Made by a program: the position numbers and the translations under genes
Shown: positions 1,264-44,679 of the stretch, in pieces
Layout of the letters: each line of letters starts with the position of its first letter
Numbering within the stretch: the stretch's first letter is position 1
Notes under the pieces: model-generated
The model's input: the letters and a program-made list of their open reading frames with translations, nothing else
The model's database searches: none
What the model was told of the DNA's origin: nothing
Assembly: GCF_000016905.1 (NCBI RefSeq)
Contig: NC_009616.1
Span: 434,001-498,000, forward strand
DNA from: Thermosipho melanesiensis BI429
GTDB lineage: Bacteria > Thermotogota > Thermotogae > Thermotogales > Fervidobacteriaceae
Length of the DNA stretch: 64,000 bases
Direction: 5' to 3'

Positions 1264-3633
1264 ATGAGATATTTAGATGAAAAGATGCAAGAGTTAGTTC
1301 AGCAAGCAGCTGAAAATCTGGAGAACAAAAGGCAAAACCTTCTAAAACCGGAACACGTATTATACGAAGTACTTCAAGAGGAAACCATTCAAAAAATTTT
1401 ATTAAAAGATAAAGGATTAAGTTTAGAAGAGATTTTTGATAGATTAGAAGAACTAATAGAAAGTCAATACGGGGTATACTATGGTTCCGGTTCAGGTGTT
1501 TACATATCAAACGAGTTATCTAGAATTTTTGAACTTTCAAGAAAAGAAGCAAAATTATTAGGTTCAAACAAAGTTTCTCCTGTACATTTTCTTTTAGCAC
1601 TGCTAAAAGACGGTTCCACACAAGCTGCATCAATACTATCTAGATATGGTATAACCTACGAAGAGATAATTAAGAAAGTAAAAGAATTATCTGAAAGTGG
1701 TGAATTAGATGGAGAAGGAAACGTACTTACAAAATATACAGTTGATTTAACTAAGCTTGCAAAAGAAGGAAAATTATCACCAGTTATTGGAAGAGAAAAA
1801 GAAATAGAAAGGGTTATAGAGATTCTCTCCAGAAAAACAAAAAACAACCCTGTATTAATTGGTGATCCCGGAGTTGGTAAAACTGCAATTGTGGAAGGTC
1901 TCGCACAGAGAATTGTCGAAGGAAAAGTACCAGACAAATTAAAAAACAAACGTATTTTAATGCTTGACTTGGGTAAAATGCTTGCAGGAAGTAAATATCG
2001 TGGTGAATTTGAAGAAAGACTTAAAAAGGTGATGGAAGAAATAAATAAATTAAAAAACAACGTTATATTATTTATTGATGAACTTCATACAATTGTCGGA
2101 GCGGGTGCTGCTGAAGGTGCTATGGATGCATCAAATATGCTAAAACCTGCACTTGCAAGAGGAGAATTACATGCAATAGGCGCAACAACATTGGAAGAAT
2201 ATAGAAAGCATATTGAAAAAGACAAAGCTCTTGCACGAAGATTCCAACCTGTCTTTGTAGAAGAGCCAAGTGTTGAAGAAACTATAAGAATATTAAAAGG
2301 TCTAAAGGAAACTTACGAAAAACATCACAACGTAAAAATCACAGATGAAGCTATAGAAGCTGCAGCAAAATTATCTTCAAAGTACATACAAGATAGATTT
2401 ATGCCAGATAAAGCAATAGATTTAATAGACGAAGCTGCAGCAAAAGTAAGTTTAAAGTCTTCCGACCCAAAAATCTCTGAATTAAAAGAAAAGATAAAAT
2501 CTTTAAGTGAAAAGATTGATGAATTAACCATCAATTCAAAATATAAAGAAGCAGCTGAAATGAAACAACAAATGTTCAAATTACAAAAGCAATACGAAGA
2601 GCTCGAAAAAAAATATGGTACAGATACCGTCTCCGCCGAAACTGTAGCAAAGGTTGTTGAATCTTGGACTGGAATTCCAGCAACAAAAATGATGGAATCT
2701 GAAAAAGAAAAATTATTAAAGTTTGAAGAATTAGTTCACCAAAGAATGGTTGATCAAGAAGAAGCAGTAAGAGTTGTAGCAGATGCAATAAGAAAAGCAA
2801 GAGCAGGAATAAAAGATCCAAATAGACCTATCGGAACTTTCCTATTTTTGGGGCCAAGTGGTGTCGGTAAAACAGAACTTGCAAAGACTATTGCAGAGTT
2901 GTTGTTTGGTTCAGAAAACGCATTAATTAGGATTGACATGAGTGAGTATATGGAAAAACATTCAGTAGCAAGACTTATCGGTGCACCTCCAGGATACGTT
3001 GGATATGACCAAGGAGGGCAACTTACTGAAGCTGTTAGAAGAAAACCATACAGTGTTATCTTGTTAGATGAAGTTGAAAAAGCACACCCTGAAGTTTTCA
3101 ACGTGTTATTACAAATGTTTGATGACGGAAGATTAACCGATGGAAAAGGAAATACTGTTGATTTCAGAAATACAATAATAATCATGACAAGCAATCTTGC
3201 AAGTGATAAAATCTTAAGAAAAGTAGAAGCAGGTATAGACTTTGAAAAGATAGAAGAAACGGTAAGGGAAGATTTAAAACATTACTTTAGACCAGAGTTT
3301 ATAAATAGAATAGACCACATTGTAATCTTTAAACCTCTAACTAAGGAAAATATGAAAGAAATTGTCGAAAAATTAGTTGCAAAGCTTGAAAAAAGGTTAA
3401 AAGAAAAGAAGTTAAAGATAAGCCTAACAGATACTGCAAAAGAATATCTAGCTAGCAAAGGATATGATCCTGCATTTGGTGCAAGACCTCTAAGAAGACT
3501 TATAGAAAGAGAAATCGAAACACCATTATCAAGAAAGATAATAGCAGGTGAAATAATCGAAGGTGATGTTGTTCTTGTTGACGAAAAAGATGGAAAATTA
3601 ATAGTTGAAAAAGAAAAACAGTTAACAAAATAA
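1264..3633 (+). CDS. clpC: Clp-family AAA+ ATPase (ClpC/ClpB-like)
   Basis: A 789-residue Hsp100 unfoldase or disaggregase. It has an N-terminal Clp-N double repeat (about 1-145), AAA1 with Walker A GDPGVGKT at 200-207 and Walker [11 protein letters not shown], a short coiled middle domain of some 50 residues (about 405-460), and AAA2 with Walker A GPSGVGKT near 535 and a C-terminal D2-small domain ending in the [11 protein letters not shown] motif. The length and short middle domain are ClpC-like. However, after MTSNLASD in AAA2 the sequence runs straight to the [10 protein letters not shown] segment, and the extended loop with the VGF/LGF/IGF tripeptide that docks ClpP is not visible, which is ClpB-like. 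Start choice: GGAGGTG 7 nt before ATG. Probably controlled through the inverted repeat upstream; transcribed alone and followed by a terminator. The ClpC name follows overall architecture; ClpP partnership is doubtful. Confidence 0.85.
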
Positions 3634-3655
3634 GGGGCAAGCGCCCCTTATTTTT
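3631..3655 (+). terminator. Terminator of clpC
   Basis: Stem TAAGGGGC / GCCCCTTA with a 4-nt loop followed by TTTTT; the clpC stop codon is the first triplet of the stem. Confidence 0.85.
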
Positions 3656-3711
3656 AATTATCACTTTGTGAAAAATTGTTTGAGTTATTTTCATTTTTTA
3701 GCAATATATAG

Positions 3712-3717
3712 TATAAT
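3712..3717 (+). promoter_or_regulatory. -10 of rubredoxin operon
   Basis: TATAAT about 50 bp before the rubredoxin ATG, in an AT-rich stretch after the clpC terminator. No convincing -35 at the right distance. Confidence 0.4.
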
Positions 3718-3767
3718 TTTATATGTAAGTAAGTGAATTTTTTACCTTATATAGGGGGGGTGAAAAT

Positions 3768-3926
3768 ATGAAAAGATACGTATGTTCCGTATGTGGATAT
3801 GTATATGATCCAGAAGTAGGAGATCCCGATAATGGAATAGAACCAGGAACATCATTTGAAGAACTACCAGAAAATTGGGTATGTCCAGTATGCGGTGTAG
3901 GTAAAGATCAATTTGAAGAAGAATAG
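3768..3926 (+). CDS. Rubredoxin
   Basis: A 52-residue iron protein. Two CxxCG pairs (CSVCGY at residues 6-11 and CPVCGV near 39-44) supply four cysteines for one Fe(SCys)4 centre, and the [25 protein letters not shown] segment between them is the standard rubredoxin core, so the identification is firm. It is a small soluble electron carrier; in anaerobes rubredoxin usually feeds oxygen or peroxide reductases. A G-rich ribosome binding site lies 5 nt before the ATG. It ends 11 bp before a TM1266-like regulator, with which it is probably cotranscribed. Confidence 0.95.
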
Positions 3927-3937
3927 GAGTGGATATA

Positions 3938-4207
3938 ATGAAAGATATTACCGTAAGAACTGTTATGGCTATATTAATCGATAACAGGGAAAAATCAGCT
4001 ACTAAGGTTCAAGAACTACTTACAGAATATGGTTGCTACATCAAAACAAGGCTGGGACTCCACGAAGGTGTGCCACAATATTGTTCAAATTCCGGTTTAA
4101 TTATTTTGGAATTAGTAGACAACGAGAAAAAACACGAAGAACTCATGGAAAAATTAAATCAAATTCCTGGAGTAAAGTCGGATTTAATGAGATTAAAGTT
4201 CGATTAA
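3938..4207 (+). CDS. TM1266-like iron-only hydrogenase system regulator
   Basis: An 89-residue protein with the ferredoxin-like (ACT/NikR C-terminal-like) pattern of the 'iron-only hydrogenase system putative regulator' family typified by Thermotoga TM1266: an initial strand VRTVMAILIDN, a helix with KVQELLTEYG, then GLHEGVPQYCSNSGLIILEL and a C-terminal GVKSDLMRLKF strand. The family is often encoded near [FeFe]-hydrogenase or maturase genes; none is in this window. The start at 3938 is preferred over an in-frame GTG at 3929 because that GTG lies inside the GGAGTGG ribosome binding site. Function is known only by association. Confidence 0.8.
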   Translation: MKDITVRTVMAILIDNREKSATKVQELLTEYGCYIKTRLGLHEGVPQYCSNSGLIILELVDNEKKHEELMEKLNQIPGVKSDLMRLKFD

Positions 4208-4237
4208 AAAAGTCGGGGAACATCTCCCGACTTTTTA
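4206..4237. terminator. Bidirectional terminator
   Basis: Stem AGTCGGG / CCCGACT, preceded by a run of A and followed by a run of T, lies between the convergent TM1266-like gene and the H-NOX chemoreceptor gene, so it can act in both directions. Confidence 0.85.
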
Positions 4238-6028
4238 TATATCAACTTTATTTAAGTTTTCTTGAATGAGTTTTAAAAGATTTATTGTTTGTGTTACATT
4301 CTCAAATACACTCTTAATTTCACTTAAGAATCTTTGAATGGATGCACTTATTTCCTCTGCAGTTGCAGAGCTTTCCTCTGATATAGCCAGAAGGTTTTGT
4401 ATACTATTTGTTATGTCATCTAATTTAGCTGCTTCGCTATTTAAAGCGTCAATAAGTGAGTTTAATTGTTGGGTTATACCGGAAATTACGTTACTTGATG
4501 CTTTACTCTTTTCTGAACTTTCCGATAATGCTTTTGTTTGCTCTTTTAAACTTTCATACCCCGATATAATACCGGCGTTCAAATTTTTGATTCCATTCGA
4601 AATTCTCGAAAGAAAATTTGAAATTCTGTTTGCGGATAACTTACTTTCTTCTGCAAGCTTTCTAATTTCATCTGCAACCACTGCAAAACCTTTCCCAGCT
4701 TCACCACTTCTTGCAGCTTCTATTGCAGCATTCAACGCCAAAAGATTTGTTTGTTCAGCTATGTTCATTACTGTATTAGCTATCTTTTTAATCTCATCTG
4801 CATCGTTTCTTAAATTTTCGCTTTCATTTGCTATCTTTTCAAAATCATTACTTACCTTTCCAATGTTTAAATACGCATTCTCAACACTTTGTGCCGCAGA
4901 AACTATGTTATCAACAGCCTCATTTAAACTTTTTATTATCTCATTCTGTTGATTAATTGTCTGTGAAATAGTTTCAACATTTGAAGAAACTGTTTCGGAT
5001 ATTCTCTCTGCATCGTTACTAATCTGAATAGCTGTATCAGCAACTTGTGTTGATAAATCTTTCATAGTATCTATTTGTTCTTGAACAATATCTATGGAAT
5101 TCATGGTTTTTTCAGAAAAATTAAGTAACTCTTCCGTATCACCTTGAAATGATATAAACATCTCTTTAAATTTTTCATTTGCTTTGTTTAATTTTTGACT
5201 AATTTCCTCAAAATTTCTTTCCCCAGTGATATATGTTACTGAAGATAGGTCATCAAATTTTAAAGATTTAAAACCTTTCTTTAGATCAAAAACAACTGGA
5301 ATTGAAAGTACAAACGATGAAATAGCAATAATTATAGATGAAACTACTGGTGGAGTAAAAGAAGAAGATAATAACGAAATAACAAACAAAATTAACGGAA
5401 AAAATATTAAATTGTTATTTAATATATTTTTCAACAAACCAAAAGACACTAACTTAAACGCCTTTAGTCTTATTAATTTTCCATATGGTTTTGTCGCTTT
5501 AACCTTAATTTCAATAAAAGCTCCAGAACTATTTGAACCTTGATTTAAAATCTCAAGTTCAACTGGATCATCAAAAAGCTTCGATGCACCCTTTGTTAAA
5601 CCTATAAAGTAACTTCTAAAATCCCTTTTAGACTCATATCTTATCCTTGCAGTCTTCTCATCTATGTAAGTATAAATAATTCTTGGAGGCTTTGCACCTT
5701 TTATCCTTCTTGTAAGTGCCCTATGTACCATATCCATAACACTTAAAAAGGAAAGAATACCGTCTTTTTTAAAATAACCAGGATAATATGAACGAAAGGT
5801 AAAAATATTCTCAAATCCTGTTTCTTCCCAGAGTTGCTCGTATGTCTTTCCAACCTTTTTTGAAAGTTCTTGCGAAAATTTTACTACAAAGTTATCTTCC
5901 ACATCGTTTATTGGATTTAAAAGTACTTCAGTATTAAGATTGAAAGATTCAATAAGTTCGTTCACCACCTTTTCTCCATAAAGCTTTTTCCAAGTATTTA
6001 TCCATATATTCATTACAAAACTTTTCAT
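4235..6028 (-). CDS. Methyl-accepting chemotaxis protein with N-terminal H-NOX haem domain
   Basis: A 597-residue chemoreceptor. Residues 1-185 form an H-NOX (haem NO/O2-binding) domain: proximal haem ligand H102 in DMVHRAL, the KPPR turn with P115, and the propionate-binding YxSxR motif (Y131, S133, R135). Distal-pocket residues W9, N74, Y140 and L144 sit at the same numbers as in the O2-binding H-NOX of C. tengcongensis. Two adjacent hydrophobic segments (about 206-223 and 226-246) make a membrane hairpin, followed by a cytoplasmic coiled-coil signalling domain with the hairpin tip [18 protein letters not shown] / [21 protein letters not shown]. There is no periplasmic sensor, so the ligand is sensed inside the cell. 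The architecture is that of known H-NOX-MCP fusions that report O2 or NO to CheA. Start supported by GGAGGTG 5 nt before ATG. Monocistronic. Confidence 0.9.
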
Positions 6029-6048
6029 CTTAACACCTCCTTCTTTTT

Positions 6049-6057
6049 ATTTTACCA
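6049..6057 (-). promoter_or_regulatory. Extended -10 promoter of H-NOX chemoreceptor
   Basis: The minus strand reads TGGTAAAAT 20 bp before the ATG at 6028, in the 47-bp gap shared with the divergent pseudouridine synthase gene. Confidence 0.5.
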
Positions 6058-6075
6058 TAAATGTTAAAATATTAG

Positions 6076-6807
6076 ATGAAAGGAGTTGATAATATTAAAT
6101 TACAAAGGATTCTCCAAATATGTGGCTTTGCAAGAAGAAAAGCAGATGAACTTATATTTTCAAAAAAGGTAAAAGTTAATGGTAAAATAGTTACCAAACC
6201 CTGGTTTGATGTAAAAGTAGATGATGAAATAACCGTAGAAGGAAAAAAGTTTACACTTCCAAAGTTTGAATATTATGTTTTACACAAACCAAAAGGTTAT
6301 GTAACAAGTCTATACGACCCAAAAGAGAAAAACACGATAAAAGAGTTTTTCAAAGATAAACCTTTAAAACCAGCTGGAAGACTGGATAAAGACGTTTCTG
6401 GTGTCTTAATATTAACCAATGATGGAGATTTAATTGATGTTTTAACAAATGCAAAATATGGAGTAAAAAAAGTTTATATAGCAAAAATAACTGGAAGGGT
6501 TAAGTTTGAAGACCTTCTTTCTCTAAAAAAAGGCATATACGATAAAGGTGACTTTTTAAAACTTGAACACTTTGACATCCTAGAACAAGGATTCAACTAT
6601 TCAACAGTAAAGGTAGAAATGATAAAAGGAAAAAAACATGAAGTAAAAAGACTCTTTGAGAAAATAGGTCATAAAGTTTTAGAATTAAGAAGAATAAAAC
6701 ACGGTCCTGTAAGTATTTCTCTTGCTCCAAATCCCGGGGATATGAGAAAGATAGAAGGAGAAATTCTAAAGAAACTTTTAAAATTAAAAAGGAGGAAAAA
6801 AGCATGA
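6076..6807 (+). CDS. RsuA/RluB-family pseudouridine synthase
   Basis: Isomerises a specific uridine in rRNA to pseudouridine. An S4 RNA-binding domain (about 8-60, with LQRILQICGFARRKADELI) precedes the catalytic domain, whose active-site motif PAGRLDKDVSGVLILTNDG carries the catalytic aspartate; a GKKHEVKRLFEKIGHKV segment follows. The 240-residue size fits RsuA or RluB types; the exact target is not resolvable. The start is unusual: the ATG at 6076 has no ribosome binding site upstream, whereas a strong AAAGGAG at 6079-6085 lies inside that reading and is spaced 8 nt before an in-frame ATT at 6094, giving an N-terminus (M)KLQRIL like that of relatives. Translation may begin at the ATT. galE overlaps the stop by ATGA. 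Confidence 0.85.
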   Translation: MKGVDNIKLQRILQICGFARRKADELIFSKKVKVNGKIVTKPWFDVKVDDEITVEGKKFTLPKFEYYVLHKPKGYVTSLYDPKEKNTIKEFFKDKPLKPAGRLDKDVSGVLILTNDGDLIDVLTNAKYGVKKVYIAKITGRVKFEDLLSLKKGIYDKGDFLKLEHFDILEQGFNYSTVKVEMIKGKKHEVKRLFEKIGHKVLELRRIKHGPVSISLAPNPGDMRKIEGEILKKLLKLKRRKKA

Positions 6808-18716: not shown

Positions 18717-20002
18717 ACAAAAGAGTTGCTATAATCTTCATTACCATAATGCTTATTTTTCTAAATGCCGATCAAATGGTTATATCTCCAAACATCGATC
18801 TAATTGAAGAGGAATTTCACATTAACGACGCACAAATTGGACTTGTTGCTTTTACTTTCACCATATTAGGTGCTGTTATTAGTTTATTATGGGGGTATTT
18901 ATCTGACAAATACAACAGAAAAGTTTTACTTATTCTATCTATTTTTGTAGGGAAAATTCCAGCATTTTTATCTGCATTTGCCGGAAGTTATTGGGAACTT
19001 TTTCTTTGGAGAACACTTCCCGGTATTGGCGTAGGTACTTTATTTCTCATTGCTTATTCATTAGTAGGTGATATGTACAAACACGATAAAAGAGGAAACA
19101 TTGCAGTCATATTATCTCTTTCCATAGCAATGGGAAGTATCTTTGGAATGATGATAGGCGGATATGCTAGTAGTATATATGGTTAGAGATTACCGTTCAT
19201 ATTAGTATTCGTTTCAAACTTTGTATTTTCAATATTATCTATATTTAAAAAGAACCAAAAAGAGGTGCTATGGAAGTTGCAATTGGTGAATTAATTGAAA
19301 AAGGCTATGAGTATCCTGAAAAACCAAAATTAAGCGATTACTTAAATTTGTTTAAAATAAAAACAAATTTTCTATTATTCTTGCAAGGTATAGCAGGAAC
19401 TATACCTTGGGAAGCAATCCCATATTATTTAGTTGAATTCTTTAAAAAAGAAAGAGAATTAACTGTTTCCCAAGCAACAACAATCCTTTTAGTTTTTGGA
19501 GTAGGAAATATGATTGGAACTCTTGTTGGTGGATTAATTAGACAAAATTTGTACACAAAATCTCCAAAAAAAGTTCCTATATTTACCTCACTCACAACTG
19601 CAGCAGGAGCAATTTTCTCTATTTGGACATTCACATACACTCCAAAAACATATCTTCTGGAATGCTAATTCTATCTATCTTAGGATTTTTTGCATCGTTA
19701 CTTGCATCGTTAACCAATTCAAACGTGAAAATGATGTTGTTAAATGTTAATGAACCACACGACAAAGGTAGAATCTTTTCCATATTCAATTTAACTGATT
19801 CATTGGGAACTGGTATTGGAAAATTTGTTGGTGGGGTAATTTCCATTTCACTTGGTTCATTAGTTGTAGCAATGAAAATTTCTCATATTTTTGGTTTTTA
19901 TGTGCAGTATTTTTGTTTATGTTGTACTGGTACTTTGAAGCAGACATAAAAAAATTAATAGATAAAATGAAAAAATTAAAAAAATCTTTCAGTAACAGCT
20001 AA
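18711..20002 (+). pseudogene. MFS transporter, inactivated (probable galactoside permease)
   Basis: Remains of a 12-helix major facilitator transporter spread over three frames. Pieces: 18749-19183 with the MFS loop motif GYLSDKYNRK, then TAG at 19184-19186 where relatives have Trp (the reading continues as RLPFILVFVSN); a frameshift at the A-run 19257-19261; 19270 to about 19640; a second frameshift in an A5 run near 19642; then a third in a T run near 19887, after which the natural C-terminus ends at 20002. Each shift can be undone by one base. The start is also damaged: a GTG with a good ribosome binding site at 18711 runs straight into TAA. Position after galK indicates uptake of galactose or galactosides. 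Confidence 0.88.
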
Positions 20003-42820: not shown

Positions 42821-42843
42821 CCCCCCAGTCGGGGGGTTATTTT
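42815..42843. terminator. Bidirectional terminator
   Basis: Stem AATAACCCCCC / GGGGGGTTATT with an AGTC loop between the LPP20 gene and the convergent decayed chemoreceptor. Confidence 0.9.
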
Positions 42844-44230
42844 ATAGGTTTTTTAGCTCTTGCGACTTTTCTGAAATTTCTTCTATTATTTTTTCTATTT
42901 CCTCTTGGCTCTTTTTTAAATCTTTGAACTTTTCAAATAAATCCTTTGCAATATTTTCAATTTCAACTTTTAAATTATTTGAAATATTATTTTGTTCTTT
43001 GTTCATTTCAACTATTTGTTTGAAACTTTCAAACATACTTGTCATTTCGCTAGTACTTTGATTTATTGAATTTAAAGTTTCGTTATTCTTTACTATTGCC
43101 ATAGATAATTTCTCAGAAAGCTCATATACAAAATTATTTACCTGCTCAAAATCCTTTTCTATTACCGAAACAGTTGAGTTTATATTATCCACTAACATTG
43201 TTGTATCCTGTGATAGTTTCCTAATTTCATCTGCAACAACTGCAAAGCTTTTCCTAGCCTCTCCTGCTCTTGCAGCCTCAATTGCTGCATTCAAAGATAA
43301 CAAGTTTGTTTGTGTAGCAATATCTTGAATCTTTGAGGTTATACTTTTTATATTCTCCACATTTTTCGAAAAATCTTCAAAGGCTTTTAAAAGATTATCC
43401 TTAACATTAATTAGATTTTCTGACAGTGTAATAACTTGTGAAAAATTTTCCAAATTATTTTTTGATGAACTCTCTATTCCTTCTCCCATTTGGCTAACGA
43501 AAGATATCTTTTCCGTTATTTCTTCTGTTTTTAATTGCACATTTAACAAAAACGAGTCAAATAAATCGAGTACATTTAAGAGATTGGATATTTTTTCATC
43601 TACTTCTTCTGTCTCTACAGCTAATTTTGATTAATTGCGTTTACAGCCTCAGTTGCGTTAAATACAACTTTTGAAAATTCCTTTGCACTTTCTGACCAAT
43701 TTGTAAGTTTTTTTATGTTCTCCTTTTCTTGCTTAAGAAGCTCGTTTACTTTTTTTACTTGTCTCAATAGTTTTTCTGTTTATTTCTATTATGTTTGTAA
43801 AAGCGTAAATACCAAGTGTAAGTCCAAATCCCGTTTGCGCTATGTTAAAAAACATGTAATCTATGTTTACCATGTTCAAAACAGAAAGAATCGACAAAAA
43901 TATACCTGCTACAACCGCTCCAAGACCCATTGTAACAAATCTTTCTGAAAGAACTTTTGAGTTTTTTATAAATAGATATGAAATATATATAAGTGACAAT
44001 ATCGCAAAAAGATAAAATTGTGAGTAATTTGTACGGACCGTTGTCAAATTTTTTGATAAAAGTACTCTTAAAAAGAACAACCAATACATAACTATATATA
44101 CCTTGAAAAATAAATGCCTTTTTAATTTAAATATCTCATGTGAAAATTCTAACGCAAAATACTTAGACAATGCCACACCTGAAATTACTATTTTTTTCCA
44201 AAACAATATAGGATGCAAAAATAAATTCAT
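42842..44230 (-). pseudogene. Methyl-accepting chemotaxis protein, frameshifted
   Basis: A chemoreceptor split by two single-base shifts. The N-terminal piece (44230 to about 43735) has several hydrophobic helices (VYIVMYWLFFLRVLL, FYLFAILSLIYISYLFI, MGLGAVVAGIFLSILSVLNM). It runs out of frame at a run of seven A near 43757; dropping one A continues as VNELLKQEKENIKKLTNWSE to a stop near 43630, where adding one A to an A4 run continues to the C-terminal piece (from 43549) with the signalling domain [20 protein letters not shown]. The invariant hairpin tip is altered as well (EARKSFAVV instead of EAGKGFAVV), which supports real decay rather than sequencing error. It overlaps the small membrane protein gene upstream by ATGA. 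Confidence 0.8.
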
Positions 44231-44649
44231 CTCATCTTTTGTATATCACTTAAATTCCCCACAAACCACTTACTTTCTATTCCGCCTATTTGTCGCGAAT
44301 AAAAAACTATTTTTGTATTTTTGTCTAATGGAATATAATAATACCTATGCCAGGAACTTAAATCTGGACCTTCTACAACAAATATAACCTTTTCACCTTG
44401 GTAAACTTCTACTTTTTCGTTAGCCGTAACTGCAAATGCAAGGTATCCACTTGTCTCATCTACATCCACCTCAAATCTATGAATATTGTTGTCTGTGAAA
44501 GTCATAAGCTTTTCATTTACTTTATCACCATTAAGAATTAAATTTGGTGTGTACAAGGAAACATTTGCTTGAATGTACGTATTAATTGAGAAAATAATAA
44601 CCAAAATAACAAATGCGCCAATAACGTAGTATATGATATTCTTCAGCAT
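44227..44649 (-). CDS. Membrane-anchored protein, 140 aa, paired with chemoreceptor
   Basis: Not recognised by family. One N-terminal helix (NIIYYVIGAFVILVIIFSINTYI) and an exported domain of about 110 residues with a beta pattern: VNEKLMTFTDNNIHRFEVDV, SGYLAFAVTANEKVEVYQG, SSWHRYYYIPLDKNTKIVFYS. The fold resembles periplasmic 7TMR-DISM extracellular domains, suggesting a sensory module. The ATG at 44649 is chosen for its AAAGGAGGG site rather than the in-frame start at 44667. The stop overlaps the next gene's start, so this domain and the broken chemoreceptor were coupled and may once have formed one receptor. Confidence 0.6.
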   Translation of the reverse strand: MLKNIIYYVIGAFVILVIIFSINTYIQANVSLYTPNLILNGDKVNEKLMTFTDNNIHRFEVDVDETSGYLAFAVTANEKVEVYQGEKVIFVVEGPDLSSWHRYYYIPLDKNTKIVFYSRQIGGIESKWFVGNLSDIQKMR

Positions 44650-44679
44650 AAGAACCCTCCTTTCCAAAAATTCCTTTTT

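Follow-up and report, generated by a model that had tools for sequence, protein, structure and literature searches.

A predicted O2-type H-NOX chemoreceptor in Thermosipho melanesiensis BI429 and the haem gap of the Thermotogota

The window analyzed here, a stretch of 64,000 nucleotides to which all positions refer unless another genome or locus is named, belongs to the genome of the thermophilic, oxygen-shunning Thermosipho melanesiensis BI429, a single contig of 1,915,238 bases; the source of the strain was mussel gills from a deep vent (PMC6211235, available text). An open reading frame at 4235–6028 encodes a chemoreceptor of 597 amino acids composed, according to the frame and its Pfam matches, of an H-NOX haem domain, a membrane hairpin and an MCP part. 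It is located on the minus strand, a point on which the sequence-only reading was silent. The gene starts with the ATG at 6028, five bases downstream of the ribosome-binding site AAGGAGGTG (6034–6042, minus strand, as read from the sequence), and the strength of this site rules out a wrong start codon that would shift the residue numbers. The gene is solitary: the gene opposite its start, 47 bases off, encodes a pseudouridine synthase, and its 3' end converges on a small gene for a CPF_0552/TM1266-like putative hydrogenase regulator (3929–4207, plus strand; context only), with a strandless, two-way terminator-like hairpin at 4215–4228 between the two genes. Five terminator-like hairpins were observed in the region 3600–6300 vs 1.0 expected. 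A pseudogene was ruled out by the open frame and by the purifying selection on its orthologues. Elsewhere in the window, three consecutive ORFs at 42842–44667 (minus strand) resembled a single receptor in pieces (exported, multi-helix, MCP signaling), and an MFS transporter within a galactose gene cluster looked broken, being divided between two ORFs (145 and 132 aa; 18749–19668).

The H-NOX domain occupies residues 1–185 (5474–6028, minus strand), as delimited by the ungapped alignment to PDB 1u4h and by the fold match. Pfam HNOB matched residues 2–159 (whole-protein E 1.1e-36; 126.7 bits vs a cut-off of 25.5), and in phmmer residues 1–181 aligned free of gaps with 1u4h, the Tt/Ct H-NOX of Caldanaerobacter, at E 8.8e-37, which rules out a chance resemblance. 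The numbering was identical to that of the Tt/Ct H-NOX at W9, N74, M98, H102, P115, Y131, S133, R135, Y140 and L144, so all residues which the sequence-only reading had placed at the C. tengcongensis numbers were confirmed by the gap-free alignment. The domain possesses both the proximal His and the YxSxR motif of an H-NOX (H102, codon 5723–5725; Y131, S133 and R135 within residues 131–135, 5624–5638), the latter known as the haem-propionate motif. It also has, with the fold in register, the distal-pocket tyrosine of the O2-type H-NOX-MCP (Y140, codon 5609–5611), of which W9 (6002–6004) and N74 (5807–5809) are the distal partners; all these codons are on the minus strand and were assigned from the alignment. 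In the Ct H-NOX, the equivalent of H102 is the proximal haem ligand and Tyr140 has a described role in the distal pocket (PMC9814294, available text), and haem b is predicted to be bound to H102 in the receptor. The haem-contact residues were invariant in an alignment of 19 rows. A structure model of residues 1–254, based on a three-sequence input (mean pLDDT 70, better in the H-NOX part and low in the hairpin), was in register with the Tt H-NOX structures over about residues 2–189 (Z about 19–20). The shift of Y140 out of the pocket, which had been named in advance as fatal to the O2-type assignment, was thus seen neither in the alignment nor in the predicted fold, and the proposal of an O2-type pocket with its haem site proved correct.

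The domain is connected to a two-helix membrane hairpin at about residues 207–247 (5288–5410, minus strand), consisting of two short hydrophobic helices that have K/R on either outer side and hardly any loop in between, as judged from hydropathy, flanking charge and low-confidence helices of the model. The cytoplasmic part after it (4235–5287, minus strand) is a coiled coil with the MCP signaling module, in which Pfam MCPsignal matched residues 395–546 (E 4.8e-30, above the cut-off), while the 13-residue motif of the MCP hairpin tip was located at residue 428, 157 residues before the C-terminus. Hydropathy, flanking charge and Pfam therefore identified a membrane-bound fusion to an MCP domain, upholding the hairpin that had been suggested earlier as the link between H-NOX and MCP output. 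The signaling-domain hairpin and the presence of CheA/CheW partners in the genome are those of an MCP chemoreceptor: CheW domains were detected in a 678-aa frame of CheA size, whose identity was assigned from its length beside CheW, in the neighboring 159-aa frame, and in a third frame of 156 aa.

H-NOX was present in 46 of 103 Thermotogota genomes, the 47 matches representing 45 distinct proteins (two pairs were identical over the first 150 residues), and the W9/N74/Y140 set was kept in 44 of the 45. The sole exception, L006, is a stand-alone domain of 173 aa with L9 and F140 from a fragmented genome; together with L074 (truncated at the edge of a contig) and L048 (a split frame), it makes up the three short Thermotogota frames. 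In the case of L048 (draft genome G089) the H-NOX-MCP gene was broken into two frames. The MCP tip was recognized in all 42 full-length Thermotogota proteins (40 by pattern, 2 by eye). In the sample of Bacillota, the phylum of Caldanaerobacter, H-NOX was found in 40 of 398 genomes, and 30 plus two further loci were read, leaving out the matches in ten of these 40 genomes. All 30 rows of full-length MCP fusions (29 distinct loci) had W9/N74/Y140, with the MCP tip recognized by pattern in 23 and by eye in 7, and the two stand-alone proteins had W74 with either I140 or F140. In the domain tree the 44 Tyr-type Thermotogota rows clustered as a single group with support of 100/99, and so, separately, did the stand-alone H-NOX of both phyla (100/100); the grouping of the former makes it most likely that the Tyr-type chemoreceptor has been held and vertically inherited within the Thermotogota. 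The window H-NOX used alone as a query against the genome contigs did not find a relative.

The gene neighborhoods were compared, as raw counts, in 41 Thermotogota loci including the window; one representative per gene type was confirmed by Pfam and the others were labeled by blastp at 1e-5. In nine loci (L053, L054, L055, L056, L052, L075, L078, L143 and L144) the receptor gene was followed on the same strand by a rubrerythrin gene and one for a superoxide reductase of the desulfoferrodoxin type, and an AhpC-type peroxiredoxin gene was located three genes upstream in seven further loci, so that these two patterns placed oxidative-defence neighbors in 16/41 loci; one additional locus had rubrerythrin within five ORFs. 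The 16 loci may reflect one or two events, because all of them are from family f9, and the nine rubrerythrin loci, from a single family and close in the tree, are possibly one event. No O2-defence neighbor was present at the window locus, and none of the 28 Bacillota loci examined with the Thermotogota queries had an O2-defence gene within five ORFs. The rubrerythrin and superoxide reductase neighbors lend comparative support to an O2 role. An HD-domain (HD-GYP-like) gene was found directly upstream in 8/41 Thermotogota loci and a GGDEF gene in 4/41, and c-di-GMP-type genes occurred within five ORFs in 24/41 Thermotogota loci vs 2/28 in Bacillota; such neighbors point as much to the control of motility or biofilm. 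In most of the nine rubrerythrin loci, a large gene further on clustered with the ClpB-like gene near the window receptor, and an aspartate kinase gene adjoined H-NOX in L062, L067 and L073, stand-alone H-NOX included.

The haem gap, not the sensor itself, is the surprising part. HemB, through which, to our knowledge, the synthesis of every known tetrapyrrole passes, was detected in 4 and absent from 99 of the 103 Thermotogota genomes (controls positive in 11/14), while ferrochelatase was detected in none of the 103 (controls positive in 8/14). HemB was missing from 43 of the 46 H-NOX genomes, the three exceptions being T. melanesiensis BI429 and two others of its genus. Gaps in the drafts can explain single absences but not 43/46, since among the 82 genomes that were at least 90% complete, 42 of them with H-NOX, only 4 had HemB. 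The hemB gene of T. melanesiensis (genome G000, 746275–747204; locus L066, 9273–10220) lies inside a cobalamin-synthesis cluster that also holds hemA, hemC, a cobA/hemD-like fusion, hemL and cbi-like genes (names assigned by reading their sequences), consistent with the B12 genes published for Thermosipho (PMC6211235, available text). The T. melanesiensis genome yielded no known haem-finishing enzyme (no ferrochelatase and no AhbD over the cut-off), and in 61 genomes probed with the AhbD profile TIGR04545 none had a match over the cut-off, with weak radical-SAM matches everywhere. The best match to this profile came from G046, a genome with HemB and without H-NOX, where two radical-SAM genes resembling AhbD/NirJ flank hemB (contig C56, 21733–24821). 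HemW-like proteins were uninformative as a haem marker, being over the cut-off in 90/103 genomes. In Bacillota, HemB was lacking in 13/40 of the H-NOX genomes and in 10/28 of the genomes with a read MCP fusion, C. subterraneus DSM 13054 being one of those lacking it.

The dN/dS ratio of H-NOX ranged from 0.015 to 0.12 in nine of ten close pairs (dS was not estimable in one), with near-saturated dS in the lowest pair; nine of the ten pairs were from genomes without HemB. The sensor domain is thus under purifying selection, indicating that the haem site is in use. With no known haem-finishing enzyme found and the sensor yet under purifying selection, import is the most likely origin of the haem, which is probably scavenged from outside.

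We consider with reasonable confidence that the protein is best explained as the Thermosipho orthologue of the H-NOX chemoreceptor of Caldanaerobacter, giving O2 avoidance, with the haem most likely imported. Following the model for the Ct H-NOX (PMC9814294, available text), haem b on H102 would bind O2 in the cytoplasm and Y140 would hold it there; the haem, bent by P115, would shift the H-NOX domain, and the shift would pass via the short hairpin into the MCP coiled coil, whose change would alter CheA activity and lead to O2 avoidance. From the sequence we infer O2 binding and aerophobic taxis by the T. melanesiensis receptor. The suggestion of an O2-binding rather than NO-selective sensor goes beyond the sequence: the tyrosine marks the pocket as competent for O2 without barring NO, because the archetype Ct H-NOX binds O2, NO and CO; in the available text of PMC9814294 its presumed O2 function is undemonstrated in correlation with living conditions, and aerophobic taxis is unproven. 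These properties of the archetype would also suit a sensor of NO (or a general diatomic or redox sensor) in vivo with Tyr140 tuning how tightly the ligand binds or how stable it is once bound, as would the upstream HD-GYP-like and GGDEF genes (8/41 and 4/41), which resemble the c-di-GMP pathways that NO-type H-NOX have in other bacteria (PMC8738867, available text). Such a function appears unlikely, considering that the tyrosine accompanies the MCP fusion in every full-length case, with the non-Tyr forms seen being stand-alone, and that 16/41 loci have oxidative-defence neighbors.

More doubtful is a vertically kept Thermotogota receptor reading both oxygen and foreign haem, in which O2 avoidance is on only when haem is available; if true, the cofactor would be foreign, for example haem from animal tissue, BI429 being from mussel gills. 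The absence of HemB from 43/46 H-NOX genomes and of ferrochelatase from all 103, combined with the haem contacts invariant in 19 rows, is compatible with a domain that exists mainly in the apo form in nature and serves as a receptor for haem (or porphyrin), with haem loading as the signal, although the full O2 hydrogen-bond network, needless for pure haem sensing, is kept, and we rate this possibility somewhat lower again. An undescribed haem-making route in the Thermotogota would account for the strong conservation of a haem site where no known haem synthesis is encoded, but it is very improbable, as the absence of HemB in 99/103 means that nearly the whole pathway would need replacing.

The nine genomes in which rubrerythrin and superoxide reductase genes come after the receptor gene independently support the O2 role of the class, which is undemonstrated. 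Most H-NOX carriers among the relatives appear unable to make haem, which points to an outside or unfamiliar source, and the conservation of a haem site where the phylum has no ferrochelatase and hardly any HemB turns haem acquisition in fermentative thermophiles into a testable question. The open-licence literature, which covers part of what is in print, gave no account of H-NOX with either Thermosipho or Fervidobacterium, nor one joining H-NOX with superoxide reductase or with heme biosynthesis and aerotaxis.

The O2-binding H-NOX of obligate anaerobes with a distal Tyr and a fusion to an MCP are a described class (PMC8738867; PMC9814294; available texts), to which the T. melanesiensis protein belongs, and the receptor itself is thus expected. 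It shares the order of parts, the pocket, the haem site and an equal length of the MCP tail with the H-NOX-MCP of Caldanaerobacter subterraneus (T. tengcongensis; PDB 1u4h/1xbn), at 30% identity over the full length. In contrast to the latter, from which it is distant in sequence, it has five fewer residues between the membrane helices and R138 and V5 in place of Y138 and I5 (V5 also occurs commonly in Bacillota), and its genome contains HemB in a B12 cluster, while no HemB match was found in C. subterraneus DSM 13054. Of the NO-type stand-alone H-NOX, L006, L104 and L108 have the haem motif in common with the receptor but are without the MCP and the distal tyrosine, and have L9 (position 9 is missing in L104). 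The Shewanella and Nostoc structures of this type have the same fold as the T. melanesiensis domain, and so does the H-NOX of the soluble guanylate cyclase beta (Z about 11–14), which is fused to a cyclase and excludes O2 (PMC8738867, available text).
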